From Dehalococcoidales bacterium (GTDB taxonomy: Bacteria; Chloroflexota; Dehalococcoidia; Dehalococcoidales; UBA5760): a stretch of 45,502 bases of DNA. The position numbers and the translations under genes are program-made. This document shows, in pieces, positions 982-45,433 of the stretch. The stretch's first letter is position 1, and each line of letters opens with the position of its first letter. Under the pieces are notes generated by a model, which saw nothing but the letters and a program-made list of their open reading frames with translations, did not search any database and had not been told where the DNA came from. The stretch is from positions 1 to 45,502 of the forward strand of contig JAQUQE010000013.1 in the NCBI GenBank assembly GCA_028716225.1. The letters run 5' to 3'.

Positions 982-987
982 GAGGCT

Positions 988-1662: not shown

Positions 1663-1679
1663 TAAGGAGAGAAAATACT

Positions 1680-21712: not shown

Positions 21713-21726
21713 AACGCTCACCCCTT

Positions 21727-30234: not shown

Positions 30235-30396
30235 TTACCTTTCTATCCGACCAGTACCGCCACACAGGTCACATCTACTGGTCCATGGGTCAGTCTTTGA
30301 TATGTTCCACCACGTCGGAATGCCAGGATGATAAATCTTGCCGTCTCCCTTGCACCGGGGGCACCGCCTACCTTTTCTCGTTTTTGCAGTCTTCAT
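30235..30396 (-). CDS. DnaJ-type zinc finger protein
   Basis: 53 aa. RRCPRCKGDGKIY and SRCDLCGGTGRIER are two CxxCxGxG repeats, the DnaJ central-domain signature, with a Trp-rich spacer. ATGA overlap with the integrase stop. Probably a small zinc-binding accessory protein. Confidence 0.7.
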   Translation of the reverse strand: MKTAKTRKGRRCPRCKGDGKIYHPGIPTWWNISKTDPWTSRCDLCGGTGRIER

Positions 30397-32126: not shown

Positions 32127-32177
32127 ATGAAGAATATAAGCGGGCAACTTATATATACACCATTGTTGCCACGGTAG
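32127..32177 (+). other. Very short plus-strand frame with perfect SD
   Basis: AAGGAGG lies 7 bases before an ATG opening a 16-codon frame (MKNISGQLIYTPLLPR). It is on the plus strand between leftward genes. Either a peptide or a by-product of the anti-SD-like sequence in the opposite transcript. Confidence 0.3.
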
Positions 32178-32181
32178 TCAA
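32153..32181 (-). promoter_or_regulatory. Family-A promoter P1
   Basis: Minus strand: TTGACTACCGTGG with -35 TTGACT and -10 GTATAT/TATATA after 17-18 bases, preceded by a C-run. Transcription would start ~60 bases before the strong terminator, giving a short RNA. Confidence 0.6.
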
Positions 32182-32218: not shown

Positions 32219-32482
32219 CTATTGGGATATCTCAGGCTCATCGCCGGGGCAAACTATCTGGATATCCTGGGTACCTTCCTCAACCATTATCTTACATTTC
32301 TGGCCCTCTTTATAGGCTGAGGGAACGGCACCATCGCCCTTAGCAAGGACTGCAGCGGTAAAGTCAGCGAAGCCCTCATCGGTCTCAATGTCCACTATCT
32401 GCACATCATTACCGAGCTTCGCTACTCTCTCTCTGATTTCCTTACATGGTCCGCAATGCTCGGATACATAGACCTTAATCAT
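32219..32482 (-). CDS. Thioredoxin/glutaredoxin-like protein
   Basis: 87 aa. IKVYVSEHCGPCKEIRERV places a CGPC redox motif at residues 10-13 after the first strand, the thioredoxin/glutaredoxin plan. Two further Cys lie in the C-terminal half. The usual cis-Pro is likely VPSAY (~53-57). It may act with the FTR-like protein at 20.4 kb. ATGA coupled to the gene upstream. Confidence 0.75.
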   Translation of the reverse strand: MIKVYVSEHCGPCKEIRERVAKLGNDVQIVDIETDEGFADFTAAVLAKGDGAVPSAYKEGQKCKIMVEEGTQDIQIVCPGDEPEISQ

Positions 32483-32679
32483 TTAGTAACATCCTTGTGC
32501 TGCCGGTAAAATTCAGGGATGCAGTTCTTCATTTTATCCAGTAACTCAGCTTTAGTGATACCCTTCTTGATCCCACAGTGCTCAGCGGCTTCTTTGAATA
32601 GCTTTTGCTGGGGTGTCTGCTCATACTCCCGAGGGGCTTGATGTACGATTAGACCGCCATGCCCACCGCTTTTTGTCAT
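32479..32679 (-). CDS. Small protein, paralog of 32794-33036; likely leaderless mRNA
   Basis: 66 aa. QTPQQKLFKEAAEHCGIKKGITKAELLDKMKNCIPEF aligns closely with the next gene's end. No SD is visible and the -10 of promoter P2 ends 6 bases before the ATG, so translation is probably leaderless. Function unknown; the Cys pair and Gln/Lys pattern recur in small phage proteins. Confidence 0.6.
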   Translation of the reverse strand: MTKSGGHGGLIVHQAPREYEQTPQQKLFKEAAEHCGIKKGITKAELLDKMKNCIPEFYRQHKDVTK

Positions 32680-32685
32680 GACTTA

Positions 32686-32715
32686 GTTATAACTTGGAAT
32701 GAGGATGGTTGTCAA
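32686..32715 (-). promoter_or_regulatory. Family-A promoter P2
   Basis: Minus strand: TTGACA (32715-32710), ACCATCC.. spacer of 17-18, -10 TTATAA/TATAAC (32692-32686). Near-consensus. Start of transcription is predicted at the A of the ATG at 32679. Confidence 0.7.
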
Positions 32716-32793
32716 TAGAAAAACAGCAGGCCCCCGGACTGCAAGTGTTGTATGCTCACTAACCCGAGGGCCTTTTTAAAAGTTGTCGATGGA

Positions 32794-33036
32794 TTAGAAT
32801 TTGCCGGGGATGCAGTCCTTCATCTTGGTCATCAGCTCTGATTTGCTGATGCCAGATTTGATGCCACAGTCCTTGGCAGCTGCAGCAACTTTCTTTTGCT
32901 GTGAAGTCTTGGGATATGGTTTCGGTTTCATCGAAACGATGATGCCGCCATTCCCACCCACAGCATAGGGGGCATCCTTCGCCTTGTAGCGCTTCGGTGC
33001 ACCCTTCATATAGGTAGAACCACCACTAAGTCTCAT
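32794..33036 (-). CDS. Small protein, paralog of 32479-32679
   Basis: 80 aa. A basic, Gly/Pro/Lys-rich N-terminus (GGSTYMKGAPKRYKAKDAP) is followed by the shared domain GGIIVSMKPKPYPKTSQQKKVAAAAKDCGIKSGISKSELMTKMKDCIPGKF. SD AAAGGGAG. Each of the two paralogs has its own family-A promoter. Confidence 0.65.
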   Translation of the reverse strand: MRLSGGSTYMKGAPKRYKAKDAPYAVGGNGGIIVSMKPKPYPKTSQQKKVAAAAKDCGIKSGISKSELMTKMKDCIPGKF

Positions 33037-33109
33037 TTAAGTTCTCCCTTTCGAGTGTTCCAGCCTTTAGTAGCCTAATAATGGCCTTCATGGCTTTATC
33101 GACATTTTG

Positions 33110-33139
33110 ATTGTGTACCCTGGTTACCACGGTTGTCAA
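33110..33139 (-). promoter_or_regulatory. Family-A promoter P3
   Basis: Minus strand: TTGACAACCGTGGTAAC with -35 TTGACA (33139-33134), 18 bases, -10 CACAAT. About 27 of 30 positions match the plus-strand promoter at 37981, on the other side of the genome. Confidence 0.65.
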
Positions 33140-33345: not shown

Positions 33346-33699
33346 TTATACTCCTTTTCCCTGGCACCGGCATTCGTGAATAGCGTTGAATATATTTTGC
33401 TGAAGTTCCTGCCTGTTTTTGGGCAGGGGGTAATCGACGATATTAACCATGCAGCCGGCCAGCTCTGCAGCCTCCTGCTCACAAGGCACTACACCCTTAA
33501 CCCTGCGAGACTTTCTCTCTTTAGGAGGCTTGGGTGGCTGCGACCGGCATATCTTTTCTGCCTCTTCTCGGGTCCCAGCTTTCCCTGAACATAATTTACT
33601 ACCACTACAGAAGTCCAACTTGCGCTGCTCTTTAGTCTTACCTGTACCCGTTATAAACGGGACCATGCATTTTCGATACTCGTCAAGTTTAAGGGGCAT
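33346..33699 (-). CDS. Cys-rich phage protein
   Basis: 117 aa. LDEYRKCMVPFITGTGKTKEQRKLDFCSGSKLCSGKAGTREEAEKIC is a recurrent Cys-containing segment. RVKGVVPCEQEAAELAGCMVN and ECRC follow. Pro/Lys linker between. It overlaps the ferritin-like gene's end by 11 bp. Possibly metal-binding, with unknown function. Confidence 0.6.
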   Translation of the reverse strand: MPLKLDEYRKCMVPFITGTGKTKEQRKLDFCSGSKLCSGKAGTREEAEKICRSQPPKPPKERKSRRVKGVVPCEQEAAELAGCMVNIVDYPLPKNRQELQQNIFNAIHECRCQGKGV

Positions 33700-34015
33700 C
33701 TTCTTTTCCCTTCGTGCACTCTTTTATAGCAGCTATGAAGTCATCTTTGGTAACAGGCTTCTTAGATATGAGACACTCCGCTGTCTCGGCCAGCTTAGAT
33801 TCTTCCGGCTTCAGGTCTAATACCCTCTGGCTAAACTCTATGGCATGCTGTTCTTCCTCGCCGGCAATGTGCTCAAATAAATTAGCTGTATCCAAGTCTC
33901 CCACACTCCTTGCTACTAAAGCTCTATCGATGTACGCTTTCCGCGCCATTATTTCCTCATCGACGCTCTTCTTGAGGTATTGAATAATCTTGGGGTAAAC
34001 GTATTTATCAGCCAT
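33689..34015 (-). CDS. Ferritin-like / rubrerythrin-type protein
   Basis: 108 aa. YLKKSVDEEIMARKAYIDRALVARSVGDLDTANLFEHIAGEEEQHAIEFSQRV has the paired-helix iron-site residues (E20/E21, E48 and the EEEQH motif) of half-length ferritin-like domains. It may bind iron or handle oxidants. The C-terminal ~30 residues form a separate helix-rich tail. SD AAGGAG. Confidence 0.7.
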   Translation of the reverse strand: MADKYVYPKIIQYLKKSVDEEIMARKAYIDRALVARSVGDLDTANLFEHIAGEEEQHAIEFSQRVLDLKPEESKLAETAECLISKKPVTKDDFIAAIKECTKGKEDAP

Positions 34016-34124
34016 GGGGCTGCTCCTTACTCTTCACAGTCTCCCAGTATTTTAACAAAGTACATTTCTCACAGACTCCCATATCTTTTCCCGGACAAGT
34101 TTTGCACTTATCCGGTCTGTCCAC
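34008..34124 (-). CDS. Tiny zinc-binding protein
   Basis: 38 aa from GTG 34124. KCKTCPGKDMGVCEKCTLL has two CxxC pairs. It overlaps the end of the intein-bearing gene and the start of the ferritin-like gene. The AAGGAG upstream is rather far, so the start is tentative. Confidence 0.5.
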   Translation of the reverse strand: MDRPDKCKTCPGKDMGVCEKCTLLKYWETVKSKEQPHG

Positions 34125-35775
34125 TTAGTTTACCGGCTCCTTGTAACTGTTTCTGTTGCTCCAGGGTAAGAAGTGATGTCACCTTTTCGGTACCCATAAC
34201 ATCCTTCCTGTAAGCTCTTACCTGGGGGATAAGACCCCGGTAATACTCAGGGTCGTGTTTCATAATCTCTGTGGGCTGAAAATCAGGTACATGGGATTTA
34301 TACCAGCCGATAATCTGGCCATAGACCGGCTTGTGCTCATAGGACATGATTTCCTCAGCCGTAGCCTCAACGCCGAAGTGGTGTTTATCAGCAAGACAGT
34401 TATGGGCAATACCGTGTGGAGTTAGATAACTTTCATCCTCGGCTACGCAGACGTTATAAACTGGTCCATTGTACTCTTCATCTTTTACGCAGCGTACCGG
34501 CAGGAACATATAACCTTCACCAGCCCACCCTTTGTTACGGAGTGTCCGTGATTGAACCACTCGCCAGCCAAAATCGCAAATAGCATTTAAACGGGACATC
34601 GCATCACCCGCAATAGAAATGGTATATGTATTACTTTCCGTCTTTATTAATCTACCCTCAATTATGCCATCTGGAGTCTTACTACATCTGAAACCATGCA
34701 GAATACCCAAGCGAAAAAGCATCATATGAATTTGATAAGCAAGGTCCTTTGAAACGGTAGCGTAATGCATTTCATTACTCGTAATGCATCCATCTCCCGA
34801 GAAGAGACCTTTTAGCAGCCTTCCTTGTTTTTCTGAGGGAAGATACATAAACCATGGGGGCAAGTGCTTTTCTAGGGCATTGCTGCCGAAGGCTTCAAAA
34901 AATAAGCAGAATTCTTTGTGGGTATAAGCGAGATGTAAGCATGTTCTTCTATGATATGTTTTCGGCTCGACTCCAAAGGTTTTGACAAATAATTGAATCA
35001 CTCTGTCTATGTGGTTAAGCTCATGATATCCTAAGCTGATAGTAATACGATTTTCAACCTTACAACCTTCTGCGAGATACCACCCAAGTATCTCCGCGAG
35101 GTCAGGTGTAATGATATCCATATCGCGGGTTTCTAATATTCTAGGAAAAACCATGAAGTCCCCATCGGTTATGTCTCTAGCATGTACCCAAGCTAGTTGG
35201 GATTCATTTAATCCTCCATGAGTGCGCCAATTCCAGCGCCATCCATCTTTTGCTACCAATACTGGATGTTCTGGTGTAGCCCGGAACGGGGAGCCAAAAT
35301 ATACTAGGTCGATATTTCGCATTATGCCAGTATGGTTTCGCACCATATGGTCGGTAATGCGTTGCACCTGTCCTCTATGGCTGAAGATTCTCCTGGCTCG
35401 ATTTTTGTAAACTTCAGCTAGTGTAATAACAGGGTGCATATCTCCATTTACGTAAACTAAAGAGTCACCAGGTTGACAGTCACAGGGTTTGCCGGCGATC
35501 CGCCCGCCCCCGGCAAGGTCCAGCTCCATCTTGTAGAGCTCTTTGCCCAGCCGGCGCCGGAGCTCTTCGATTGTTTCCTGGGTATTGGCCAGTTTAGGCT
35601 TGGTCACTATGGCTGGAGTAGTGCCGGATATGACTTGAGTAGATGAGGGTTGGATATGAAATACTTCTTCGCCCGGGTATGGTGGAAATTTCACTTCTGG
35701 CGGCGTATTTAACCCTTTAACGATGACGCTCACCAGCAGTTTAAGACCGACAATGGGTAAATTACCAAGGTCCAT
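34108..35775 (-). CDS. CDC...KHH-motif protein interrupted by an intein
   Basis: 555 aa precursor, 195 aa after splicing. The start is set at ATG 35775 with SD GGGAGGTGG; the upstream ATG at 35802 lies in the -10 box. Host parts: a hydrophobic N-terminus (LPIVGLKLLVSVIVKGL), a Pro/Thr linker, then KPCD joined to CLADKHHFGVEATAEEIMSYE and a helical C-terminus. Splicing restores CDCLADKHH, a probable metal site. First gene behind the leftward divergent promoter. Family not recognised. Confidence 0.75.
   Translation of the reverse strand: MDLGNLPIVGLKLLVSVIVKGLNTPPEVKFPPYPGEEVFHIQPSSTQVISGTTPAIVTKPKLANTQETIEELRRRLGKELYKMELDLAGGGRIAGKPCDCQPGDSLVYVNGDMHPVITLAEVYKNRARRIFSHRGQVQRITDHMVRNHTGIMRNIDLVYFGSPFRATPEHPVLVAKDGWRWNWRTHGGLNESQLAWVHARDITDGDFMVFPRILETRDMDIITPDLAEILGWYLAEGCKVENRITISLGYHELNHIDRVIQLFVKTFGVEPKTYHRRTCLHLAYTHKEFCLFFEAFGSNALEKHLPPWFMYLPSEKQGRLLKGLFSGDGCITSNEMHYATVSKDLAYQIHMMLFRLGILHGFRCSKTPDGIIEGRLIKTESNTYTISIAGDAMSRLNAICDFGWRVVQSRTLRNKGWAGEGYMFLPVRCVKDEEYNGPVYNVCVAEDESYLTPHGIAHNCLADKHHFGVEATAEEIMSYEHKPVYGQIIGWYKSHVPDFQPTEIMKHDPEYYRGLIPQVRAYRKDVMGTEKVTSLLTLEQQKQLQGAGKLSGQTG
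34399..35478 (-). mobile_element. Intein with LAGLIDADG homing endonuclease
   Basis: 360 aa inside the protein above. Starts at Cys (CQPGDSLVYVNGD, block A). Block B is ATPEHPVLV. LAEILGWYLAEG and LLKGLFSGDGC are the two LAGLIDADG helices. It ends DESYLTPHGIAHN (blocks F/G), followed by Cys+1. All splicing residues are present, so it should be active. It sits exactly between the two Cys of a CDC motif. Confidence 0.92.
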
Positions 35776-35797: not shown

Positions 35798-35827
35798 ATC
35801 ATATAACCACTTTACCATGGTAGTCAA
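35798..35827 (-). promoter_or_regulatory. Family-A promoter P4 (leftward)
   Basis: Minus strand: TTGACTACCATGGTAA with -35 at 35827-35822, 18-base spacer, -10 TATGAT (35803-35798). Drives the intein-bearing gene. Back-to-back with P5; only 7 bases lie between the two -35 boxes. Confidence 0.7.
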
Positions 35828-35872: not shown

Positions 35873-36595
35873 ATGACTGACAAAAAGCCACAGACGACAA
35901 CGGAAAATGAACCTGTTAGTAAATGCCCTTTTTGCGACAAAGCCATATTACTTGGTGAGTATAAAAACGTAGGAGCTGCCCTGACAGCGCACAAGTGGGC
36001 TGCCCATGCCAGGGAAATGAATACGCAACTTGACGCTGCCCGACAGAAATCAGCAGAAACACGAAAGATTAAAAGTATGGCCAAAAAGGAAAAGAAAAAC
36101 AAACCCTTACAGACCACTATCGAAAAAGCCATAGAGCCAGAGTCCAATACAGAGCCTCCTGTCACCTCCATAGAAGAAGAGCCAGTTACTCAAAAGGACA
36201 CTGAAGCAGTGGCTCCTCCACCAAGAAAGACCGAGGAAGAAAAGGCAGAGGTGGAGAGACTAAAGAGACTAAAAGTAGAAACCGAGCGGAAATTAAGAGC
36301 AGGTCCGGGGATTATCGCTACTGCTACCGCTCCCAAGCCCGGTGCCATTCAATTCCAGCTTGGTGCTCTTTTGATAGAGGTCGATCCATTAAGCCTGGTA
36401 GAGTGCTACCAACTCTACAAAGACATGGTTACCCGCTGTGGACTGACCAGTACGTTCTCGGAGGCCATGGTTGATTCATTTGGCATGGCATGGCGGATGC
36501 TGGCAGCCGAGCTACCAGCAATGGAGCCGCGGCATAACGGTAATGGACACCATGAAGTTTCCCAGGAACAAATAACCAGAGTAAGAATTGCTTGA
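35873..36595 (+). CDS. C2H2 zinc finger and coiled-coil protein
   Basis: 240 aa. CPFCDKAILLGEYKNVGAALTAHKWAAHA (residues ~18-46) is a C2H2 finger. Then comes a long Glu/Lys/Pro linker, a helical EEEKAEVERLKRLKVETERKLR and a globular C-terminal part (GAIQFQLGALLIEVDPLSLVECYQLYKDM). First gene of the rightward block. Possibly a regulator or scaffold protein. Confidence 0.6.
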   Translation: MTDKKPQTTTENEPVSKCPFCDKAILLGEYKNVGAALTAHKWAAHAREMNTQLDAARQKSAETRKIKSMAKKEKKNKPLQTTIEKAIEPESNTEPPVTSIEEEPVTQKDTEAVAPPPRKTEEEKAEVERLKRLKVETERKLRAGPGIIATATAPKPGAIQFQLGALLIEVDPLSLVECYQLYKDMVTRCGLTSTFSEAMVDSFGMAWRMLAAELPAMEPRHNGNGHHEVSQEQITRVRIA

Positions 36596-36608
36596 ACAAG
36601 GAGGAATC

Positions 36609-37469
36609 ATGTCTAGTATAGGTGAATTGCTTGGCAAGAAGTACGGTGATACCAAAACTCAAAGTGGGGAAGGTAAGACTGACAAGGACAAATTCCAGGA
36701 AACATTAGACTTGGCGAATGATGCCGCCAAACTACGCATTGTTGAGGGAATTGGCGGCACTAAAGGCGTTGTAGAGAAACAAGCTGATAAAACTACCCTC
36801 GATATCTCCGGTGTCATTAAGGCCCAGTCTGAACAGATTAACAGCCTTATGACTAACCTGGTGACCCTTATCACTGCAAAGAAAGATAACGTTGACCCGT
36901 TCTTTGAGTACATGAAGGGTGAACTCAGGGACATGAAAGAACAACTGAGTGGCAACGACCCACTGGCGGCTATAGCTAATAACATGGCGGTAATGAAAAG
37001 CCTTACTGACCAGATGAAACAGCATCTTGGTATCGGTGCTCCAGTGGCCGGTACCGGCGACAACATAAATCTTATGCTGGAGATTGAGAAACTAAAGGGT
37101 GACAGAGAGGAATCAGCTCGACGCTGGCAGGCAGAGAGAGACGATATCCACCATCGCTGGGAGATAGAGGACAAGAAATGGACTGCCGATTATAACATGG
37201 CAGTAAACAAACTCTCCAGCGATAGCAAAGGGAGAGAAGGCGCTGCTACCATGGCTCAAGACTTGATTGGTTCAGCAATTGAGGCTTTCGATGCCGGGCG
37301 TCGAGGAGTAGCGGCAGGGGCGCAGGCTACACCACCGGTACAATACAAGCTCCCCAAGAGTATTATCTGCGAAGAATGCAAGAAAGAGATAGTTGTTCCC
37401 GAAGACCATAATCCTAGTCAGCCTGTAGTATGTGCCTGTGGCGAAAAATACAACTTTGGACCAAAATAA
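36609..37469 (+). CDS. Coiled-coil protein with C-terminal zinc ribbon
   Basis: 286 aa from ATG 36609 (SD AAGGAGG). Helical throughout: IKAQSEQINSLMTNLVTLITAKK, FFEYMKGELRDMKEQL, and a charged stretch LEIEKLKGDREESARRWQAERDD. It ends with a zinc ribbon (IICEECKKEIVVPEDHNPSQPVVCACGEKYNF). Composition suits a scaffold or DNA-associated particle protein. No family named. Confidence 0.55.
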   Translation: MSSIGELLGKKYGDTKTQSGEGKTDKDKFQETLDLANDAAKLRIVEGIGGTKGVVEKQADKTTLDISGVIKAQSEQINSLMTNLVTLITAKKDNVDPFFEYMKGELRDMKEQLSGNDPLAAIANNMAVMKSLTDQMKQHLGIGAPVAGTGDNINLMLEIEKLKGDREESARRWQAERDDIHHRWEIEDKKWTADYNMAVNKLSSDSKGREGAATMAQDLIGSAIEAFDAGRRGVAAGAQATPPVQYKLPKSIICEECKKEIVVPEDHNPSQPVVCACGEKYNFGPK

Positions 37470-37516
37470 TGGGAAAACATCCGGCAGAATCTTTAACCCC
37501 CCACACCCCCCATAAG

Positions 37517-37699
37517 ATTAAAGATATATATATAGAGTTAGAGTTAGATAAAGATTATGTAACGGCGTTACATCCACGCCTGAGTTTGAGGCTGTAACGG
37601 AAAAGGTCGTTACAAGGTCGTGCCTAGAAAAAGTGTCATGTAACGGGGCCAAGTCGTTACATTCCGTTACATTTCCGTTACATTTGGAGGTCATAAAGT
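37517..37699 (+). repeat. Inverted repeat copy 2 in an intergenic region
   Basis: Near-identical to the minus strand of 12181-12347. Differences: an extra GAGTTA at ~37537, an extra 11-bp unit (ATTTCCGTTAC) at ~37671 and a few substitutions. The initiator frame is broken here. It ends 2 bases before the GTG at 37701 and supplies that gene's SD (GGAGG). Confidence 0.92.
37559..37681. other. Candidate replication origin 2 (GTAACG iterons)
   Basis: Eight hexamers: GTAACG at 37559, 37594 and 37640, and CGTTAC at 37566, 37608, 37655, 37665 and 37676. The last three are spaced 10-11 bp, one helical turn. An AT-rich tract (ATATATATATAG) lies 30 bases upstream. This is the only gene-free DNA of the two arrays (37470-37700). 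Confidence 0.7.
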
Positions 37700-37700
37700 A

Positions 37701-38057
37701 GTGGGTAAACTACAAGATATTTTAGACAAATTCGATGGAGTGACTTTTGCCAAGTCTCTTATACTTAAACAGATAAAACGCAAGATCGACCCCTTCCTGG
37801 AAAAGTGGGGACCTGAACGATGCGATGCTATGATATTAGCTAACAAGGACTTCGGTGATGTTATACCTCCGGAGCTGGTAGCCAAATATGCCCCTGAAGG
37901 GAAGAAGTGGTCGTTCTTACTGGAGAAATTAACCGACGATGACTTTATTTCGATACTGCCGCCCTGGTTTATTCAAACTGTTGACAACCGTGGTAATCAG
38001 GGTACAGAATGGGCGGGTAGGCAAATAAAATGGCTGAAGGGATTTCTTGGCGAATAG
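37701..38057 (+). CDS. Hypothetical protein downstream of the iteron array
   Basis: 118 aa, GTG start with SD inside the repeat. Helical (LQDILDKFDGVTFAKSLILKQIKRKIDPFLEKWG), then PPELVAKYAPEGKKWSFLLEKLTDDDFISILPPW. No family recognised. Its last codons contain the TTGACAACCG promoter for the next gene. Confidence 0.55.
   Translation: MGKLQDILDKFDGVTFAKSLILKQIKRKIDPFLEKWGPERCDAMILANKDFGDVIPPELVAKYAPEGKKWSFLLEKLTDDDFISILPPWFIQTVDNRGNQGTEWAGRQIKWLKGFLGE
37981..38010 (+). promoter_or_regulatory. Family-A promoter P6 inside a coding region
   Basis: Plus strand: TTGACAACCGTGGTAAT with -35 37981-37986, 18 bases, -10 CAGAAT. Nearly identical over 30 bases to P3 (33110-33139). It lies in the last ~75 bases of 37701-38057 and would feed 38030 onwards. 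Confidence 0.55.
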
Positions 38058-38701
38058 ACCCCAAAACAGGTAAAAAACTGCTTATCACCGCAGCTGTAGC
38101 AGTTGGGGTTGGCATATTCCTGAGTCAGATTTCTTCAAAACCATCAGGCGCTTCAGTTAAATACCCCACTAATTATCTGGTAGACCCGGACTCCGTATCT
38201 GAAATAGCGACACAGCTGCCCAATGATGAGGATGACTTCATTCTATCGGCATGGGATTATGTCCACAATAAAGTGCGCTATTCCAGCTATAACACTGATA
38301 TTTTTCTCATCAATTCCGGCGTAGAATGTACCCGCTGCTATCATCCGATATCAGTGCTTCAAAGCGGCAGCGGTAACTGTGTAGCTTCGGCCTCATTGCT
38401 GACATCTCTTCTCAGAGCCAAATTATCCCCTGACCGGGTATATGAAGCGGTAGGGTATCTCGATACCGGCAAAGGTGATTTTGGTCATGCCTGGGTGGAA
38501 GCCAAAAGGAACGATGGTAACTGGTACCTATTAGAATCAACTTCGGCTCCCTGGGGATGGCAGTCGAGGAACGCTGCTAACAACTATGAAACTTTAGCCA
38601 AGTTTAACGATGCCAAGTTTGAGTGCTATAGCCATGAAATGTGCCAGGTCGCCATGGGGTGCCCCTGTGAGCAACGGAGTGAAAGATGGCGCGGCCTTTA
38701 G
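38030..38701 (+). CDS. Membrane-anchored transglutaminase-like protein
   Basis: 223 aa. Residues ~15-33 (KKLLITAAVAVGVGIFLS) form an anchor. Residues ~70-175 follow the transglutaminase-like (papain-fold) core: GSGNCVASASLLTSLLRA with Cys117, DFGHAWVEAK with His153, and WYLLESTS with Glu169 in the third position. It could cleave or cross-link protein or peptidoglycan peptides. Extra Cys near the end (CYSHEMC, GCPCEQ) may form disulfides. Shares the anchored plan of other proteins here. Confidence 0.7.
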   Translation: MAEGISWRIDPKTGKKLLITAAVAVGVGIFLSQISSKPSGASVKYPTNYLVDPDSVSEIATQLPNDEDDFILSAWDYVHNKVRYSSYNTDIFLINSGVECTRCYHPISVLQSGSGNCVASASLLTSLLRAKLSPDRVYEAVGYLDTGKGDFGHAWVEAKRNDGNWYLLESTSAPWGWQSRNAANNYETLAKFNDAKFECYSHEMCQVAMGCPCEQRSERWRGL

Positions 38702-39027
38702 TTGTAACCGGTAATACTCTTAATGAGCTGCAGCACCAGCTAGAAGCCTGGTACAAGCCCGGTGCCAAGATGCACCTTTACCTGGGCGTTCAGAGAGACA
38801 TGACTGCCGAGATACTTGCTGATATCCAGCAAAGTTTGCTAAAAGGCGGAGTGAAACTTACCTCCCCTCTTGATATAGGTAATGGCAAATGGCCCAATAC
38901 TTTACGCATACAGTTTGAGAAAGGTATAGGCCCACTGCCGCTGGATAGCCTAACCAGTAAACCTTTAGGCTGGATACTGATAAATGTAAATGCTGTTAAT
39001 GCCAGGCTGGGAGGTAATCTCCGTTAG
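38686..39027 (+). CDS. Hypothetical protein
   Basis: 113 aa, overlapping the previous gene by 16 bp. LNELQHQLEAWYKPGAKMHLYLGVQRDMTAEILADIQQSLLKGGVKLTSPLDIGNGKWPNTLRIQFEKG is alpha/beta. This order of helix-strand-helix-strand repeats in the neighbouring 39036 product (DNLRDTLTFAGVEDLQVSSSGSQVNVTWRKG). Possibly particle proteins of one type. No family recognised. Confidence 0.5.
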   Translation: MARPLVVTGNTLNELQHQLEAWYKPGAKMHLYLGVQRDMTAEILADIQQSLLKGGVKLTSPLDIGNGKWPNTLRIQFEKGIGPLPLDSLTSKPLGWILINVNAVNARLGGNLR

Positions 39028-39035
39028 GAGGAATT

Positions 39036-39449
39036 ATGGCTTGGGAACAAATAGGTGAAGGTGGCAATACTGACATAATGGATGTTGTCAGTTATGAGAA
39101 TAATCAGGTCGCTGAGGGTCAGAGGGCAATGCTTCAGTGTGAATTTGCCCTGCCGGTACCGACCTGGCAGATAGATAATTTACGTGACACTCTGACATTT
39201 GCGGGGGTGGAGGATTTACAGGTTTCGAGCAGCGGTTCTCAAGTAAATGTAACCTGGAGGAAGGGGTTTGCCTGGGCTGCGGTCATTATTGCAGCTCTAG
39301 TAGTTATAGCACTTATCATTATCTGGCGAATGTTCAAGGATGTGCCAGCGCCGGTACAATCGTTTGCACTTATTGGCATAGTAATAGCAGCTCTAGCCGT
39401 TGTCGGCGTGGTCGTATATAAAGCAGTAAAAAGTGGGAGGGCACCCTGA
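39036..39449 (+). CDS. Two-pass membrane protein
   Basis: 137 aa. N-terminal ~75 residues form a small alpha/beta domain. Two membrane helices follow (WAAVIIAALVVIALIIIW and FALIGIVIAALAVVGVVVY) with a short basic end. SD AGGAGGAA. TGATG coupled to the next gene. Candidate integral protein of a viral or host membrane. Confidence 0.6.
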   Translation: MAWEQIGEGGNTDIMDVVSYENNQVAEGQRAMLQCEFALPVPTWQIDNLRDTLTFAGVEDLQVSSSGSQVNVTWRKGFAWAAVIIAALVVIALIIIWRMFKDVPAPVQSFALIGIVIAALAVVGVVVYKAVKSGRAP

Positions 39450-39955
39450 TGAATGAAAATGCAAGAATCAGTAGACTCAATATGAGGCCGGTAGCGTTCA
39501 GGCCAATGGAGGCGAGTTATGAGGCTGGGGCTCTAATCCCAGGCCCACGTAATCATATTCTCGATGCGTGGGTGGAAGTGAACAGCGCTCGCGTAAATCA
39601 AGTAGTGGTGGGCGGTACTTTCAATATCGGGGTTCAATTTGAGGCCGAGAATATCAATGGCAATACCTGGCATCTGGCCATAACGGGAATTGACCCCACT
39701 GGCGCTGTAGCTTGTTTTTGGGATGAGAGTGTTGGTTTCCCCATACAAAAGAGCTATGTAACCGACACTCGATTGTTAAATAAGCCCAGCTCACCCATAA
39801 TGCCTGCCGGCACCGGAGCACTGGTGGTAACACTCAGGTTGTGGCTTAACGATGATTTCAACGTTAGCCCTTCAGCTCCGCCGCAAAATCTGTGGCTCAA
39901 TGGGATATCCGGTCAATCGCCTCCTCCAAACACTAATGGCCCGTTTACAGCCTAA
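39449..39955 (+). CDS. Beta-rich hypothetical protein
   Basis: 168 aa. HILDAWVEVNSARVNQVVVGGTFNIGVQFEAENINGNTWHLAITGIDPTGAVACF reads as an Ig-like or jelly-roll strand pattern. GTGALVVTLRLWLNDDF follows. Pro/Ser/Asn-rich end. Probably a structural protein by composition and setting. Confidence 0.5.
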   Translation: MNENARISRLNMRPVAFRPMEASYEAGALIPGPRNHILDAWVEVNSARVNQVVVGGTFNIGVQFEAENINGNTWHLAITGIDPTGAVACFWDESVGFPIQKSYVTDTRLLNKPSSPIMPAGTGALVVTLRLWLNDDFNVSPSAPPQNLWLNGISGQSPPPNTNGPFTA

Positions 39956-39966
39956 TAAGGAGTGTC

Positions 39967-40662
39967 ATGGCAACTTTAACGATTGCCGATAGTATTATAA
40001 ACCAAGGCGGGAACATTACCTTTAGCCTCACTGGCTTTTATGGAGGATATGCTATTTATGTTGGAGTGGTAGGCGGCGGCTATGCCACCTTCTACGCTCC
40101 GACTGGTAACTTATCTAATGCAGTTATGGGACCTATCGGAGAGGCTCCTGGAGGTCCATACACTTTAAGGGCTTGGCAAGAAGACGAATACGGCTCACTA
40201 ATAGCTCAAGCTACTGCCCCCTTTTATATAGAGGCAGTCGGCTGGTGGAATGTAGTGGTAGCCCAACTTTCTGTAGGACGCCCGGCAACTTATAGTGGCT
40301 GGTACAACTCAGCCTATGCCCAGTTTTCGATCGCTCGAATAGTCGGCGTCTTAGGTTGGTACAACTCAGCTTATGCCCAGTTATCAGTTACTCGAATGGC
40401 AGCCTCTAGCGGCTGGTATAACAGCGCTGTGGCCATCTTGAATGTGAGTCGCGGCGCAGCCTCATCTGGCTGGTACAACTCAGCCTTAGCTCAATTTTCA
40501 ATCGCTCGAAAGGGAGTAGAGCCGCCCCCTCCGGATGGTGAGGGTGGTATAAACTGGCCGGCAGTGGCCATAGCCGGCGGTGTCGTAGTTACCCTTGCGG
40601 CTGTTGCTGCCACTCACAAAGGGCAAATAAAGAGCGTAGTATCTAAAATCAAGCGCAAGTAA
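39967..40662 (+). CDS. Repeat protein with C-terminal membrane anchor
   Basis: 231 aa. Residues 1-90 form a beta-rich domain (YAIYVGVVGGGYATFYAP). Residues 92-186 are five tandem 19-aa units beginning GWYNSA-AQ-S--R. After a Pro/Gly linker, residues ~197-216 (WPAVAIAGGVVVTLAAVAA) are an anchor followed by a basic tail (SKIKRK). Likely a tethered spike: head, repeat stalk, anchor. Confidence 0.65.
   Translation: MATLTIADSIINQGGNITFSLTGFYGGYAIYVGVVGGGYATFYAPTGNLSNAVMGPIGEAPGGPYTLRAWQEDEYGSLIAQATAPFYIEAVGWWNVVVAQLSVGRPATYSGWYNSAYAQFSIARIVGVLGWYNSAYAQLSVTRMAASSGWYNSAVAILNVSRGAASSGWYNSALAQFSIARKGVEPPPPDGEGGINWPAVAIAGGVVVTLAAVAATHKGQIKSVVSKIKRK
40240..40524 (+). repeat. Five tandem 57-bp units coding 19-aa repeats
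   Basis: Units start at 40240, 40297, 40354, 40411 and 40468. The common pattern is G-W-Y-N-S-A-x-A-Q-x-S-x-x-R plus five variable residues. The first unit is the most diverged (GWWNVVVAQ). DNA between units is similar enough for copy-number change by slippage. Confidence 0.85.
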
Positions 40663-40666
40663 CCTA

Positions 40667-40696
40667 TTGACAACCATGTTATTGCTGGTAAAGAAT
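40667..40696 (+). promoter_or_regulatory. Family-A promoter P7, capsid operon
   Basis: Plus strand: TTGACAACCATG, -35 40667-40672, -10 AAGAAT after 18 bases. It precedes a ~110-base leader and the gene at 40816. The -10 is weak, so activation by a viral factor is possible. Confidence 0.55.
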
Positions 40697-40731
40697 TACT
40701 GCATGTCTTAAATAAAATAAGGTTTTCTAAA

Positions 40732-40792
40732 AGAGGGGATCAGATTTATCTGAAGATGCTTCCCCTCTGCAACCTTCAGGTCGAGAGGTTGC
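40732..40792 (+). promoter_or_regulatory. Structured mRNA leader with two hairpins
   Basis: AGAGGGGA (40732) pairs with TCCCCTCT (40761-40768), enclosing a second stem TCAGA/TCTGA. Immediately after, GCAACCT (40769) pairs with AGGTTGC (40786-40792). The stems lie between P7 and the SD of 40816. Probably stabilises or controls the structural mRNA. Confidence 0.65.
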
Positions 40793-40815
40793 CACTATCT
40801 AAAGGAGGTAGAAAA

Positions 40816-41196
40816 ATGATTGATGTAACCAAAACCATTACCTCGGTAGTAGAGGGCGCAGTCGATATCGGCATGGTCAAATGGGATGAGAAAGCCATCG
40901 CGGCTAATGCAGCCTCAACCAGAGGCGCTCCCTTCAAAGGGGCTGTTGATATCTCACGACTGGCAATCACCATCGGCGGATACGCTGCATGGGCCTTGGG
41001 CAAAGGGAAAGTGGCAGTTATTGGCGAGGCGGCAGCCCTGTCAACAACTCCTCTCTTGATTCACTCGATTTATAATGCCATGCAGAAGCCCTCGGTAGCC
41101 CCTGTAGTGCGTGAGTACGTACAGCGAAGGGTTGCCAATCCGGTACCTGCAGGACGCACCTATGAGCCGGAACTGAAAAAAGCCTACGCAATGTAA
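40816..41196 (+). CDS. Hydrophobic protein at the head of the putative capsid operon
   Basis: 126 aa from ATG 40816 (SD AAAGGAGG); the frame is open upstream to 40756 within the leader hairpins. IDVTKTITSVVEGAVDIGMVKW is amphipathic and DISRLAITIGGYAAWALGKGKVAVIGEAAALSTTPLLIHSIY has two weak membrane segments. Tail basic. Probably particle-associated. No family recognised. Confidence 0.5.
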   Translation: MIDVTKTITSVVEGAVDIGMVKWDEKAIAANAASTRGAPFKGAVDISRLAITIGGYAAWALGKGKVAVIGEAAALSTTPLLIHSIYNAMQKPSVAPVVREYVQRRVANPVPAGRTYEPELKKAYAM

Positions 41197-41239
41197 AAAG
41201 CATAAATAGTAAATTTAGCTCTGAAGGAGGAATACACGG

Positions 41240-41893
41240 ATGAGCTCTAAAGCATTTCTTATCGAAACCGATTCCATGACCTATAGCGACCAGCAACGGC
41301 TAAGAACCGCTGCACTCGCTGGCGCTGTTCAGCGAGCATATAACCAGGGTATCGCACCCTGGGACAAAGAGGACCTTCCCCTGAAAAACGATTCCAAATT
41401 TGCCGATACCCCTGACCTGAGTGAACTTATTGACTACATAGCCAGGGGTGGATGGCCCAAGAATCTGGACGCCCGCGAATTCCAGCCCACGCTTGATGCT
41501 GGTGCTGGTGCTGCTGCGGACTTCTGGAATACCCCTGTCCTGGCTGCAGTCGGCACCGAATACAGCTGTCTTGGCGCTGTTGGTGTTGCCCCCGCTGCCA
41601 GCCGTACCAATAAGATAGTTGTCTGGTACAAAATTCAGATAATCACGACCCCATTACCGGTGAACCGGCTTCTCTTCCGCCGCAATACGGCGACTGGTTT
41701 ACTCCAGGCAGAGTTTGACCTGGAGCAGGTTTCCGGTGGTGAGAGAGTCGATGGTTACTTCTCTGAGCCCCAGGTATGGGACAAGACTACCCCCTACGCC
41801 ATCAACGCTATGTGCATGCTTCTCACTAATGCAGCGTGCAAAGTCGTTCTTGGCAATTTCGTTGTTGAACCTGCCGGACAGACTAACGTCTAG
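41240..41893 (+). CDS. Putative structural (capsid-type) protein
   Basis: 217 aa, strong SD (GAAGGAGG). N-terminal ~75 residues are helical. Then Ala/Gly-rich AGAGAAADFWNTPVLAAVGTEYS and a beta-rich end (TNKIVVWYKIQIITTPLPVNRLLFRR...CKVVLGNFVVEPAGQ) suggest a jelly-roll-like subunit. It is in the best-expressed looking part of the operon. No match to HK97-type capsids seen. Confidence 0.45.
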   Translation: MSSKAFLIETDSMTYSDQQRLRTAALAGAVQRAYNQGIAPWDKEDLPLKNDSKFADTPDLSELIDYIARGGWPKNLDAREFQPTLDAGAGAAADFWNTPVLAAVGTEYSCLGAVGVAPAASRTNKIVVWYKIQIITTPLPVNRLLFRRNTATGLLQAEFDLEQVSGGERVDGYFSEPQVWDKTTPYAINAMCMLLTNAACKVVLGNFVVEPAGQTNV

Positions 41894-41907
41894 TTGAATA
41901 ACGCACC

Positions 41908-41932
41908 GGGGGGATGCGTAATTCCCCCCTTC
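41908..41932 (+). other. Hairpin between two structural genes
   Basis: GGGGGG and CCCCCC (with AT/ATT inside) pair about 15 bases after the stop at 41893. Sited between putative capsid genes, it may adjust their relative expression or protect the upstream mRNA end. Confidence 0.5.
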
Positions 41933-41997
41933 CCTACTTATGGGGCGTGCTGGAGAGGCCGTAATCCTCTTACTTTATTCAAACTGGAGGTAATCAG

Positions 41998-42456
41998 ATG
42001 GGTCAATATTCTCGTAGAGTACAACAGTTACTTTTGGGTCAGCAAGGTGCTAGTTATCAAATATGGCCAGCTCCGACCGGTGTCCCCGCGACTGGTGTTG
42101 CGGTAGTTTCCGGTGCCGGTGCCTGGGGTAACGTAGCGGATATCGTGGCTGCTGGTGCTATAGCTACTGAGTTCTGGTGTGTTGGGTTGTTCATCCAGAC
42201 ACTAGGCGGTGGTGCTATTCAGGCAATGGAATTCATTGTTGCCAGCACTGGTCCTGCCGCTGGTAACCCCGGTCCTGTAACTACCCCCTTTATCTTCCAA
42301 TTCAGGGTAGACCCCAGCCTGGTAACACTGGACTATGGCTTCTTCCCGTTGCCTTACCCGGTGTATAAGCCAGCTGGTACTCGCGTTTGCTACTGCGCCG
42401 GCGGTGCTGCCGCCAGAAGCATGGCCGTCAGTTTGGCCTACGCAATCAACTTATAG
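41998..42456 (+). CDS. Putative major structural protein, beta-sandwich
   Basis: 152 aa. Gly/Ala-rich strands (ATEFWCVGLFIQTLGGGAIQAMEFIVAS, PFIFQFRVDPSLVTLDYGFFPLPYPVYKPAGTRVCYCAGGAAARSMAVSLAYAINL). The FPLPYPVYKPAGTR then repeated Ala/Val strand is typical of phage jelly-roll proteins. Small, framed by hairpins at both ends of its mRNA: candidate major coat subunit. Confidence 0.45.
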   Translation: MGQYSRRVQQLLLGQQGASYQIWPAPTGVPATGVAVVSGAGAWGNVADIVAAGAIATEFWCVGLFIQTLGGGAIQAMEFIVASTGPAAGNPGPVTTPFIFQFRVDPSLVTLDYGFFPLPYPVYKPAGTRVCYCAGGAAARSMAVSLAYAINL

Positions 42457-42463
42457 CTCAGTC

Positions 42464-42498
42464 GTACCATGCACCCGGATAATCCGGGTGCATGGTAC
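42464..42498 (+). terminator. Perfect 15-bp hairpin after the putative coat gene
   Basis: GTACCATGCACCCGG (42464-42478) pairs without mismatch with 42484-42498 around ATAAT. It begins 8 bases after the stop. No T-run follows, so partial terminator, RNase barrier or mRNA stabiliser. The rest of the gap to 42575 is AT-rich with no gene. Confidence 0.75.
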
Positions 42499-42575
42499 CT
42501 TACTAAAGTAATTGAATATTGAATAAGGCTATCTAATCACTCTTTGAGAAAAGAGAGAAAAAAGGAGTGTGAAGT

Positions 42576-43199
42576 ATGTCACAAGATTTTATGCGCCGAG
42601 CCTACAAAGCATCGGACGCGATGGAACCCGTTGCCCTGCTCGATGATTTTGTCCGGGTCATTACCAACGGCCAGGAATATTTCGGCAAGGTAGATTTCTT
42701 TGAAGCTATCCCCCCATTTCAGTGTATCGACTTTTGCGCTGTTCCTCCATGGGGACCGCTGGCAGTAGCCACTCCCATGCCGGCAGCCACCAGCCCAGGC
42801 AAATATAATGTAACCAATCTTGACCTGGACGACGACGAGTTTGGTCAGTGGCGCTGGTTCCCGCTCGATAATATCCAGGTAGGATTATATCTGCCCTCCG
42901 GTGTTGCCAAATGGTCGCTGAAGAATATTCAAGGCGCTCTTGACAGGGCAATCGTCTATCGCGATCCGCTACTGGTATCAACAGAGTTTTACTCATGGGA
43001 AGACCAGCGGCCGGCAATGCAGCCTACCAACTTCTCTGGATATGTTCAGAATGCCGCTCGGATTGTCGCCTTTGGCTATCGATATCATATTTCACAGATC
43101 AAGGTGGGCAACCCACTGTACACAAACCTGTTGAACGGCAACACTCCATGCACACCGGTAATCTGCAAGGGCTTCATTGGGCAGCCTTCAAGAACGTAA
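42576..43199 (+). CDS. Putative structural protein
   Basis: 207 aa, SD AAAAAAGGAG. FFEAIPPFQCIDFCAVPPWGPLAVATPMP, WRWFPLDNIQVGLYLPSGVAKWSLKNIQ, then VSTEFYSWEDQRPAMQPTNFSGYVQNAARIVAFGYRYHI. Aromatic- and Pro-rich beta protein without enzyme motifs. Position suggests a minor capsid or vertex component. Family unknown. Confidence 0.45.
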   Translation: MSQDFMRRAYKASDAMEPVALLDDFVRVITNGQEYFGKVDFFEAIPPFQCIDFCAVPPWGPLAVATPMPAATSPGKYNVTNLDLDDDEFGQWRWFPLDNIQVGLYLPSGVAKWSLKNIQGALDRAIVYRDPLLVSTEFYSWEDQRPAMQPTNFSGYVQNAARIVAFGYRYHISQIKVGNPLYTNLLNGNTPCTPVICKGFIGQPSRT

Positions 43200-43231
43200 A
43201 ATCGAGGTTTATTAAATAAAGGAGGAATTCT

Positions 43232-43615
43232 ATGCCAGCTTTAACTGAGCTTGATAGAGGATATAAGGTTACTGGTCCAGTAGTAAATTTGGCGGTGGCT
43301 GGAGTTGGAACAGCAGCAGTGGTATTTATCCGCTCCAACTTTGCCGGGCAGATAGGCACAAAGAGCTTCAGAATTAAAAAGGTCATCTGCCGTAACAATG
43401 CGGCGGGCGCTACCTTCTTAAACATCGGCACCGGTGTTGGGGGCCTTTTTGTCGCTGCTATCCCCGCTCTAATGACCTTAAACAACATGGATCAAGAGTT
43501 TGGTCCGGAAGAGCTGGGAAATGCGGAATTTTTCGCTAGTGCGACGGCTTGGCCTACTGCCCTGGCCGCTGGTGGTACACTCGATGTGCAAATAGAAGTT
43601 GAAGAAATAGGCTAA
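43232..43615 (+). CDS. Putative structural protein, single beta domain
   Basis: 127 aa. GYKVTGPVVNLAVAGVGTAAVVFIRSNF, SFRIKKVICRNNAAGATFLNIGTGVGGLFVAAIPALMTLNN, then GGTLDVQIEVEEIG. Regular strand pattern of a jelly-roll-like domain. SD AAAGGAGGAA. Probably a particle protein. Confidence 0.45.
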   Translation: MPALTELDRGYKVTGPVVNLAVAGVGTAAVVFIRSNFAGQIGTKSFRIKKVICRNNAAGATFLNIGTGVGGLFVAAIPALMTLNNMDQEFGPEELGNAEFFASATAWPTALAAGGTLDVQIEVEEIG

Positions 43616-43628
43616 AGGAGGCTCCACT

Positions 43629-44177
43629 ATGGCTGACCGCCAAGATTATACGGCTATAGCCGCAACTGGGGCCGCCGTTATGGCTGCTCTGGCCTGGTCT
43701 AAAAGTCCGGCAGCCGCCTCAAGCCAGTTTCCGCCGGAGCTTATGCAGCTTTTGACTGCAATGGCCAGTGACCTGAATGATGCTGACAGGGTTAAACTTG
43801 CCGACATTCTGGTAGCCATTCAACAATTGAATCCTGAATTGAATCCTGCAGTTGGGGGCTTAAAAGGTTACCCCGCAAATCTACCGAGACTTAGTACAAC
43901 AAGGGTGCAAATACTGGCTGTTAATACAGCGGTACAGCTTCCAGATATTGTCATACCGGATGGTTTCGCTGTTAAAATCAAGGCATATCCAACTAATGCC
44001 GGCATAGTGCGCGTCGGACCAGGCAAAACTGGAGCTATCGACCCTAACCAGGCCGAGACGCTTCTGGCTAATGAAGCCACTTTTTACAACATACAGAATA
44101 CCAATATTCTATATGTGACGAGCACAGCTCTGGCCGTTGTCGGAGAATATGTTACAGTGACAGCGGAGCAATCATAA
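43629..44177 (+). CDS. Putative structural protein with N-terminal hydrophobic segment
   Basis: 182 aa. AIAATGAAVMAALAWSKSPAAASS is a weak membrane or anchor helix. Then a helical PPELMQLLTAMASDLNDADRVKLADILVAI, and a beta domain TRVQILAVNTAVQLPDIVIPDGFAVKIKAYPTNAGIVRVG...ILYVTSTALAVVGEYVTVTAEQ. The DIVIPDGFAVKIKA pattern recurs in phage particle proteins. SD AAAGGAGG. Confidence 0.5.
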   Translation: MADRQDYTAIAATGAAVMAALAWSKSPAAASSQFPPELMQLLTAMASDLNDADRVKLADILVAIQQLNPELNPAVGGLKGYPANLPRLSTTRVQILAVNTAVQLPDIVIPDGFAVKIKAYPTNAGIVRVGPGKTGAIDPNQAETLLANEATFYNIQNTNILYVTSTALAVVGEYVTVTAEQS

Positions 44178-44189
44178 TGGAGGTGTAAT

Positions 44190-45194
44190 ATGGCAGGCGG
44201 TACTACTGTTACCCCGGTATCCCCCGGCCTTACTTTTTACGGTATTGTTTCTAATGTAATCTCTGCCACCCAGTTTACAGTACCATTGCTGGTAGGCAGA
44301 GGGGATACTTTTTTTAATAACTGGATGGTATACGTGCTGCGTAAAGGCACCGGTACCGGTGCCGCCCCCCAGGGCGAGCAGCAAATAGCCACTGCCTTTG
44401 TCAGTAACAGTGGCCTGGTTACATGCCCGGCCTTCACCGCAGTTCTCGCTCCAGGCGATGAGATACTGATGCTGCACCCGGATATCTCAACAGTATTGGC
44501 AGCCGGCATCGCCGCAGTCCTGGCAGCTATCGGAGGCGTAGCAGCCGGTGTAGGTCTTTGCTACCGTGGCATAGTTACTGGGGTTCCTGGAGCTGGCCAA
44601 TTCACCATTGCAACCCTAGCCGGTCAAGGGGGTAACTCATTTATAGACCTCAGTGGAATAAATCCCTACTACGCTTTTGTTAAAACAATCGCTGCCGGCA
44701 CTGGTGCCCCTCCGGAGGGAGAGCTCCAGCCAATCACAGGTTATGCCACCTTAACCGGAAACTTCAGCGCGGGCGCTTTTACAGTCCCAGTTGGTATTGG
44801 CGATGAGATTCTCATTATACATCCCATGCTGGCCAGAATATTTAACATGTACGGAACGCCTCCGGCCACCGGAAGCCTAGTGGCTAACTGGCAGGCTGCA
44901 GAGCAGACCTTAGTTAACATCGGCGCAGCCAATACCAGGAACAAGGTCAATACCTTAATGATTGACATGAATGCTATCGGTGGTACACTCACTATCCGTA
45001 TGTATCATGCTATAGCCGGTGTTCAAAGACAAATCTACAGCCAGGCTTTTACTGTTGCACTCGATGGACCCGGACGATGGACAATTAACGGCCCTGTTGG
45101 AATATTCGATATTCTCCGGGTAACCTGCCAAAGCAATCTTGTTGGTGACAACGGTGTAGCCATAGCCTACAGCTATATGTTGGAGCACATGTAA
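44190..45194 (+). CDS. Putative structural protein with repeated beta domains
   Basis: 334 aa. Two related N-terminal units: TFYGIVSNVISATQFTVPLLVGRGDTFFNNWMVYVLRKGTGTGAAPQGEQQIATAF and CYRGIVTGVPGAGQFTIATLAGQGGNSFIDLSGINPYYAFVKTIAAGTGAPPEGELQPITGY, both ending near GDEIL-IHP. The C-terminal ~90 residues (LMIDMNAIGGTLTIRMYHAIAGVQRQIYSQAFTVALDGP) resemble phage decoration or tail domains. TAATG coupling to the next gene. Confidence 0.55.
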   Translation: MAGGTTVTPVSPGLTFYGIVSNVISATQFTVPLLVGRGDTFFNNWMVYVLRKGTGTGAAPQGEQQIATAFVSNSGLVTCPAFTAVLAPGDEILMLHPDISTVLAAGIAAVLAAIGGVAAGVGLCYRGIVTGVPGAGQFTIATLAGQGGNSFIDLSGINPYYAFVKTIAAGTGAPPEGELQPITGYATLTGNFSAGAFTVPVGIGDEILIIHPMLARIFNMYGTPPATGSLVANWQAAEQTLVNIGAANTRNKVNTLMIDMNAIGGTLTIRMYHAIAGVQRQIYSQAFTVALDGPGRWTINGPVGIFDILRVTCQSNLVGDNGVAIAYSYMLEHM

Positions 45195-45433
45195 TGAGTC
45201 TTGAAATCAAGAGCGGCGGAGTAACCGCCATATCAGGGTTAACCATAGACGCCGATAAAGGCTGGGCGGCTAAAGGTATCTCTAATATTAAAGAGGTAGT
45301 TGCCGGCATGGCTGAAGGTGACATGATTTACCATGACGGCACAAGAATAGTCAAGATAACTCCTGGCGTTATAAACTCTGAACTTATAACGAAAGGTCCG
45401 ACCTGGCCACCCATATGGGGGTTCGTAGCATGA
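45194..45433 (+). CDS. Small paralog of the fibre protein N-terminus
   Basis: 79 aa, spanning the circular joint. SLEIKSGGVTAISGLTIDADKGWAAKGISNIKEVVAGMAEGDMIYHDG aligns along its whole length with residues 1-75 of the next gene (55-981). A tandem duplication in which only one copy gained the distal domain. It may be a connector shared by the receptor proteins. Confidence 0.65.
   Translation: MSLEIKSGGVTAISGLTIDADKGWAAKGISNIKEVVAGMAEGDMIYHDGTRIVKITPGVINSELITKGPTWPPIWGFVA

Follow-up and report, generated by a model that had tools for sequence, protein, structure and literature searches.

The portoglobovirus Sulfolobus polyhedral virus 1 (SPV1) has a circular double-stranded DNA (dsDNA) genome of ~20 kb, single-jelly-roll capsid proteins, an inner lipid layer and a nucleoprotein core, and its nucleocapsid protein wraps the DNA (PMC8459092). 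Neither SPV1 nor FLiP (Finnlakeviridae) has a packaging ATPase, and jelly-roll viruses have been proposed to have acquired packaging ATPases at a later stage (PMC8812541). Here we compare with such systems a stretch of 45,502 nt, contig JAQUQE010000013.1 of the Dehalococcoidales assembly GCA_028716225.1 (the window, hereafter C13), in which a first-pass annotation had noticed a virion-like gene block without terminase, portal or HK97 capsid genes. We read C13 as a complete circular dsDNA virus of an undescribed lineage, with a tailless, membrane-associated single-jelly-roll shell and a genome loaded without a classical motor, and we give this reading an even chance of being right. To our knowledge, nearly all capsid-bearing dsDNA viruses of bacteria pump their genome by a terminase or an FtsK/HerA-type motor.

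The window is the whole contig and begins and ends with the same 127 bases, leaving ~45,375 bp of unique sequence (1-45502 minus the end overlap). Because an overlap of identical length occurs in contigs of this and another sample (C11 and V538, 127 bp each; that of the circular contig D173 is 141 bp), C13 is most likely a complete circular genome and the repeat an assembler overlap of a circular molecule; a biological terminal repeat was rejected, as exactly that length recurs in other circular contigs. Including C13, there are four complete circular genomes of the lineage, the three relatives spanning 42-50 kb:

C11: 49,555 bp, circular, from the same bin as C13
D173 (G142:C173): 44,178 bp, circular, from another genome (G142) of the same order
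V538 (IMGVR_UViG_3300024353_000002): 42,252 bp, circular, from IMG/VR

The block that the first-pass annotation had placed at 38030-45433 is real and contiguous but larger, extending rightward from 35873 to 45433 and on across the circular junction to ~7700. Its main features are the following:

35873-36595 (+): P30, with a zinc finger here, a helix-turn-helix in relatives and a conserved C-terminal domain; DNA-binding candidate
36588-37469 (+): P31, coiled-coil protein with a C-terminal zinc ribbon
37701-38057 (+): P32
38030-38701 (+): transglutaminase-fold protein with an N-terminal membrane anchor (Pfam 1.9e-9; homologues in V538 and in C27, a contig of the same bin)
39036-39449 (+): P25, membrane protein with two C-terminal transmembrane helices (hydrophobicity, conservation)
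39967-40662 (+): beta-repeat protein with a C-terminal membrane anchor (hydrophobicity)
40816-41196 (+): P33, small, moderately hydrophobic protein directly before A (likely start 40816, AAGGAGG)
41240-41893 (+): A, capsid candidate of 217 aa, N-terminal helices and a beta-sandwich (model, 10 contigs)
41998-42456 (+): B, small conserved protein (profile conservation)
42464-42498 (no strand): perfect 35-base palindrome separating B from C (stem of 16 bp), probably a hairpin for termination or processing
42576-43199 (+): C, best-conserved virion candidate, 207 aa, eight predicted strands, single-jelly-roll-like (model, 12 contigs)
43232-43615 (+): D, small beta-rich protein (11 contigs)
43629-44177 (+): E, N-terminal hydrophobic segment (found in E members) and a beta domain
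44190-45194 (+): F, large fibre/spike-like protein of 334 aa (comparison of genomes)
45194-45433 (+): adaptor domain MSxExxxGGVTxLSxLTIDADK in a short copy; the gene at 40 starts with another
40-2906 (+): three fibre/receptor-binding-like proteins of 313, 224 and 408 aa
5351-6157 (+): GH114 glycoside hydrolase, candidate surface-sugar degrader (Pfam 2.5e-79)

The gene order P33-A-B-C-D-E (40816-44177) is kept in the complete genomes and is followed by fibre-like proteins; several fragmentary contigs also retain the block. A, C, D, E, P25, P33 and P18 (a leftward gene, see below) are present in all four, and B and P30-P32 in three each: P30-P32 in C13, C11 and D173, with V538 uncertain, and B unconfirmed in D173, where a gene of fitting size nevertheless occupies its position. 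After profile rebuilding, C is found in 12 contigs, D in 11, A in 10, B in 9, P33 in 8, P25 and E in 7 each and P18 in 6; A and C are the two best-conserved block proteins. Two distant IMG/VR contigs reached through P18 (L061 and L063) both keep P18, and L061 also has P30-P33, P25 and, in collinear position, a C of weak similarity (hhalign E=6e-4, probability 28%). Relatives of protein C occur in C11 and C27 of the source bin, in 5 of the 156 genomes of the order Dehalococcoidales, in 5 of 393 sampled genomes of the class Dehalococcoidia, and also in bins labelled Halothiobacillus and Chitinivibrionales. These relatives came solely from the source bin and from alignment-based searches; scanning viral and genome collections with C as a single protein found nothing, and alignments of eight to ten diverse members are too variable for pattern scans. 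The lineage proteins tested have no relative in 50,697 phage records (a collection that did not include SPV1) or 72,556 plasmid records, in line with the 'unknown type' of particle first proposed.

For the 79 window proteins, no terminase, portal, HK97 head or tape-measure gene was found among the best 25 of 44 PHROG families and Pfam, and no head, packaging or tail-shaft gene is among the PHROG and Pfam matches listed for them; most virion-block proteins were also scanned one by one against profiles. The families that did match are a DnaC-like loader, a clamp loader, a replication initiator, a Holliday resolvase, an integrase, GH114 and a transglutaminase, and a tape-measure match of P31 reaches only E=0.03. 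The test itself works, because the profiles for large terminase (PHROG 2) and portal (PHROG 12) match together on four other contigs of the same bin (C14, C24, C62 and C68); neither matches C13, C11 or C27 in the whole-bin scan, nor V538 or V537. Likewise, the HerA-type DUF87 profile has no match on C13, C11 or C27. A search for the Walker A pattern returned, for the window, three P-loop ATPases from other families; C11 has two P-loop proteins, V538 has nothing beyond a DnaC-like protein in which the motif is a variant, and no gene-sized protein of D173 contains the pattern. As the three ATPases of the window belong to other families and D173 has none, no packaging motor common to the lineage is recognised. 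Thus the absence of terminase, portal and HK97 genes that the first-pass annotation had claimed held in sequence-profile tests on the window and three complete relatives, and so did, with profile scans, DUF87 and Walker A searches, that of a packaging ATPase and of a convincing tape measure. Its statement that no protease is recognisable was too strong: the 38030 product has a transglutaminase/papain fold, and an HELGH motif is present in relatives of 39036.

The conserved shell candidates are short (120-220 aa); F has 334 aa. Structures were predicted for C from six sequences and for A from five, with a mean predicted local distance difference test score (pLDDT) of 59 and 60, respectively. 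No HK97-fold capsid profile matches in the window; the A and C models, the only ones made for block proteins, are beta structures of low confidence. The low-confidence model of C has eight strands, and its structural neighbours are mostly single-jelly-roll capsids (Z 4.5-6); they include bromovirus, picornavirus and circovirus capsids, cupins, Ena2A and a phage cement protein. For the model of A (pLDDT ~60), the SPV1 capsid 6oj0 comes first in the VIA ranking (Z 5.9, 132 residues, root-mean-square deviation 3.7), with CBM32 and discoidin domains within 1 Z of it; the absence of a family from these rankings was not counted as evidence. Foldseek gave no significant match for either model, sequence-profile searches of the PDB with A, C, E, F and the fibre families gave no credible one, and profile-profile comparison of A and C with SH1 VP4/VP7 and P23-77 VP16/VP17 gave none, although such proteins can diverge beyond sequence detection. 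We treat these neighbours as leads only, and of a block said to be 'rich in jelly-roll-like proteins' there remain two beta-sandwich models, A and C.

A strongly hydrophobic 19-mer is found in 12 of 30 rightward genes versus 6 of 48 leftward genes (Fisher p=0.011). Anchors above threshold are present in the products of 38030, 39036 (two), 39967, 5051, 6725, 2926 and 3124, whereas those at 3677 and 4621, though discernible, do not reach it. The single-anchor proteins proposed at first were thus recovered at 38030, 39967, 5051 and 6725 (then given as 6755), but not at 3677 and 4621 (then 4633), and 39036 has two transmembrane helices and belongs to a family of larger proteins: in relatives P25 is large and includes an N-terminal domain, which has the HELGH motif in C11, D173 and D187. 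A 'tailless, perhaps membrane-containing' particle may fit the gene set and the fold hints, the basis being low-confidence models and conserved membrane anchors.

On the side of adsorption, F is 59-63% identical among three complete genomes. In the relative D187 (G142:C187, L035:2261-5100) a diversity-generating-type reverse transcriptase (PHROG E=2.9e-124) adjoins a lectin-like member of a PHROG 'tail protein' family (4.2e-58), an arrangement typical of receptor-binding proteins.

The virion block shares promoter-like sites with a leftward operon around P18. A 30-bp sequence occurs twice in the window, at 37981 (+) just before 38030 and, inverted, at 33110 (-), with 0 chance matches in 100 shuffles. 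Its left part, TTGACWACCRTG, is found exactly at 32170, 33128, 35816, 35835, 37981 and 40667 and with one mismatch at 32704; allowing up to one mismatch, the whole window holds 8 matches versus 0.62 expected, a number reached in 0 of 100 shuffles. The seven promoter-like sites with this motif all fall at 32.2-40.7 kb:

37981-38010 (+): TTGACAACCGTGGTAATCAGGGTACAGAAT, before 38030
33110-33139 (-): TTGACAACCGTGGTAACCAGGGTACACAAT
35798-35827 (-): before P18
35835-35864 (+): before P30
40667-40696 (+): before P33-A-B-C-D-E
32152-32181 (-): TTGACTACCGTG
32686-32715 (-): TTGACAACCATC, before 32679

Five of the TTGACWACCRTG sites are promoter-like with an 18-base spacer, promoter-like sites as such being no commoner than in shuffles, and they sit ahead of P18, P30, 38030, P33 and the small-gene operon. 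The inverted 30-bp copies were also considered as recombination sites of an invertible segment; this was set aside in favour of promoters because each copy lies ahead of genes and matches TTGACA-18-xAxAAT, and the left part recurs at five further sites. The motif was not seen to play this role in the relatives. For C13 the pattern suggests that P18, its neighbours and the virion genes form one regulon:

34108-35775 (-): P18 family, core gene in 4/4 complete genomes, intein-interrupted; likely start ATG 35775 behind GGAGG
34399-35478 (-): LAGLIDADG intein of 360 aa inside the conserved KPCD/C motif of P18 (Pfam LAGLIDADG_3 1.3e-12), absent from the P18 of relatives
33689-34015 (-): ferritin/rubrerythrin-like protein adjoining P18 (profile and comparison)
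32219-33036 (-): three small genes, one glutaredoxin-like (32219-32482) and two for AAxxCGIKxGxS...CIP proteins, named by eye; also in C11, V538 and C27

With no recognised motor, portal or tailed-phage capsid, a tailless capsid may be built here in an unusual way. The particle would have a shell of two single-jelly-roll-type proteins, A and C, with B, D and E as minor beta proteins, and beneath it a lipid membrane kept in place by P25, P33 and E. For adsorption it would carry fibres mounted on adaptors (F and the products of 40-2906) as well as sugar-cutting proteins such as GH114. The P18 operon, P30-P32 and the shell operon, with their one promoter type, may be switched on together. Given the lack of a recognised packaging motor, condensation during assembly probably serves to enclose the genome: DNA-binding virion proteins (candidates P30, P31 and P18) would condense it while the shell assembles around it, in the manner of SPV1, instead of its being pumped into a preformed head. 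Directly observed are the circular genome, the conserved gene block, the absence of recognised terminase, portal and HerA genes and the promoter-like sites in common; jelly-roll fold, membrane, particle shape, motor-less packaging and host are inferred from them.

Compared with the described systems, the C13 lineage appears by analogy to work most like the portogloboviruses, from which it differs in genome size and replication genes, and we assign it to no known family. Like SPV1, C13 is circular dsDNA with no packaging ATPase, few recognisable genes and many membrane proteins, and a single-jelly-roll shell is suggested by the model of A (and that of C). Unlike it, C13 has bacterial-type replication genes, fibres, GH114 and an integrase, whereas the host of SPV1 is an archaeal hyperthermophile. 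With the Helvetiavirae (Thermus phage P23-77, Haloarcula virus SH1) it has in common two small capsid genes lying close together with a small membrane-protein gene ahead (VP15-VP16-VP17 in P23-77, P33-A-B-C in C13, where the roles are predicted); however, those viruses encode an FtsK/HerA-type packaging ATPase, none of which was found in C13, and their genomes measure 17-31 kb. FLiP resembles C13 in having no packaging ATPase and in being tailless and membrane-containing, as C13 probably is, but it has single-stranded DNA and a double-jelly-roll capsid, for which the shell candidates of C13 are short. An integrase, fibre-like proteins, a DnaC/clamp-loader replication set and, in a relative, a lectin linked to a diversity-generating system recall the Caudoviricetes; a recognised terminase, portal, HK97 head or convincing tape-measure gene is what sets C13 apart from them by its absence.

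Several points weigh against a motor-less jelly-roll virus. The models of A and C are of low confidence (mean pLDDT 59-60, from 5-6 sequences), all Z values are below 8, a range that common beta arrangements reach, many of the matches of A are CBM/discoidin-type beta-sandwiches, and a BFVD search with A gave weak, mixed matches only; neither sequence nor profile searches matched a block protein to a known capsid protein. P-loop proteins do occur, with three ATPases of other families in the window and a small protein (32311-33042) in C11. C13 is, at ~45 kb, more than twice the size of the SPV1 genome, the nucleoprotein role of P18, P30 and P31 is that of candidates, and the link to Dehalococcoidia comes from bins, that of C13 itself being mixed.

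Among the alternatives, a spindle-shaped or pleomorphic membrane virus, with a coat mainly of the small hydrophobic P25 and P33 and with A-F as external spikes and fibres, fares best, although we consider it unlikely. Such viruses need no packaging motor, C13 has many single-anchor proteins, and in every complete genome P25 retains its pair of C-terminal transmembrane helices and P33 is hydrophobic; yet A, B, C and D have no terminal anchors and are the best conserved, as expected of a shell, and the large P25 of relatives, with its N-terminal domain, is unlike a small spindle coat protein. Somewhat more doubtful still is a non-autonomous plasmid-like element or phage satellite with adhesion proteins, moved by conjugation or in the capsids of a helper tailed phage. 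The lack of packaging genes, the integrase and the four contigs with terminase and portal in the same bin would suit it, but satellites are usually smaller and retain a gene for a small terminase or for capsid remodelling, divergent genomes have the conserved block in common, one of them with a receptor-diversifying system, and neither a relaxase or conjugation family among the PHROG/Pfam matches listed for the window nor protein A in PLSDB plasmids was found. A tailed phage with terminase, portal, head and tail genes too divergent to be recognised is improbable: despite fibre-like proteins that resemble tail-fibre families, the PHROG 'tail protein' in D187 and the weak tape-measure match of 36588 (0.03), the complete genomes have no gene of terminase or portal size in common, no Walker A protein occurs in D173, conserved proteins of the block reach ~330 aa at most, there is no long tape-measure gene, and the terminase and portal profiles succeed on neighbours in the same bin.

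If the motor-less jelly-roll reading is right, the existence of such bacterial dsDNA viruses, with genomes of 42-50 kb, would extend the range of what seems feasible and would be relevant to the proposed late addition of packaging ATPases (PMC8812541). More tentatively, and in our view doubtfully, this could be a new lineage of bacterial viruses at the level of a realm or phylum, with a jelly-roll, membrane-lined shell and no ATP-driven motor, as a counterpart of the proposed ATPase-less ancestor of the single-jelly-roll kingdom. Virus detection keyed to hallmark genes can overlook entire lineages, since pattern scans of 2.9 million IMG/VR contigs gave only two with the C gene (one of them circular, 42,252 bp). 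Viral candidates would also be gained for the Dehalococcoidia, which are important in organohalide bioremediation.

The hosts would be bacteria, probably Dehalococcoidia (Chloroflexota), and C13 is an unclassified virus-like element, probably of uncultured Dehalococcoidales-type bacteria. Its source bin is mixed, with a bacterial 16S on C3, a second one on C92 and an archaeal 16S on C49; the bin (G000) is nevertheless rated 96% complete and 3% contaminated and also holds several virus-like contigs. Comparison of CRISPR-spacer-like sequences from 156 genomes of the order with C13 (two candidates scored per genome) gave short chance-level matches and related phage DNA only, and thus no spacer-based host link. 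In two of the tailed-phage contigs of the bin, the terminase/portal matches (G000:C14:18334-21607 and G000:C62:1407-3955) span in-frame TAA/TGA codons, which may reflect stop-codon recoding, an intron or frameshifts.

Outside the virion block, the leftward genes of the window include replication and integration functions, and a sliding clamp is encoded by D173:

21041-21721 (-): bacterial-type clamp loader, PolIII delta'/DnaX-like (Pfam 1.8e-29)
11111-11965 (-): DnaC-like helicase loader (profile match)
17495-19117 (-): Cdc48-type AAA ATPase, not a packaging family, common only to E71
30393-31259 (-): tyrosine integrase (profile match)

The Cdc48-type ATPase pairs with a DUF3150 protein (15995-17236), and this pair is otherwise seen only in G125:C71. 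Between B and C, a cysteine-rich YkgJ-like (Zn/Fe-binding) protein is encoded in C11, D187, L050 and E71 (L014:7649-8440; L050:9154-9897), with a comparable gene in the window at 8810-9364. D173 (L033:17215-19265) and the matching part of D187 encode a ThiF/E1-like protein, the neighbours of which resemble, by eye, a bacterial ubiquitin-type conjugation cassette. Also by eye, an apparent papain-fold protein of C11 (L012:8372-10201) contains an intein-like insert.

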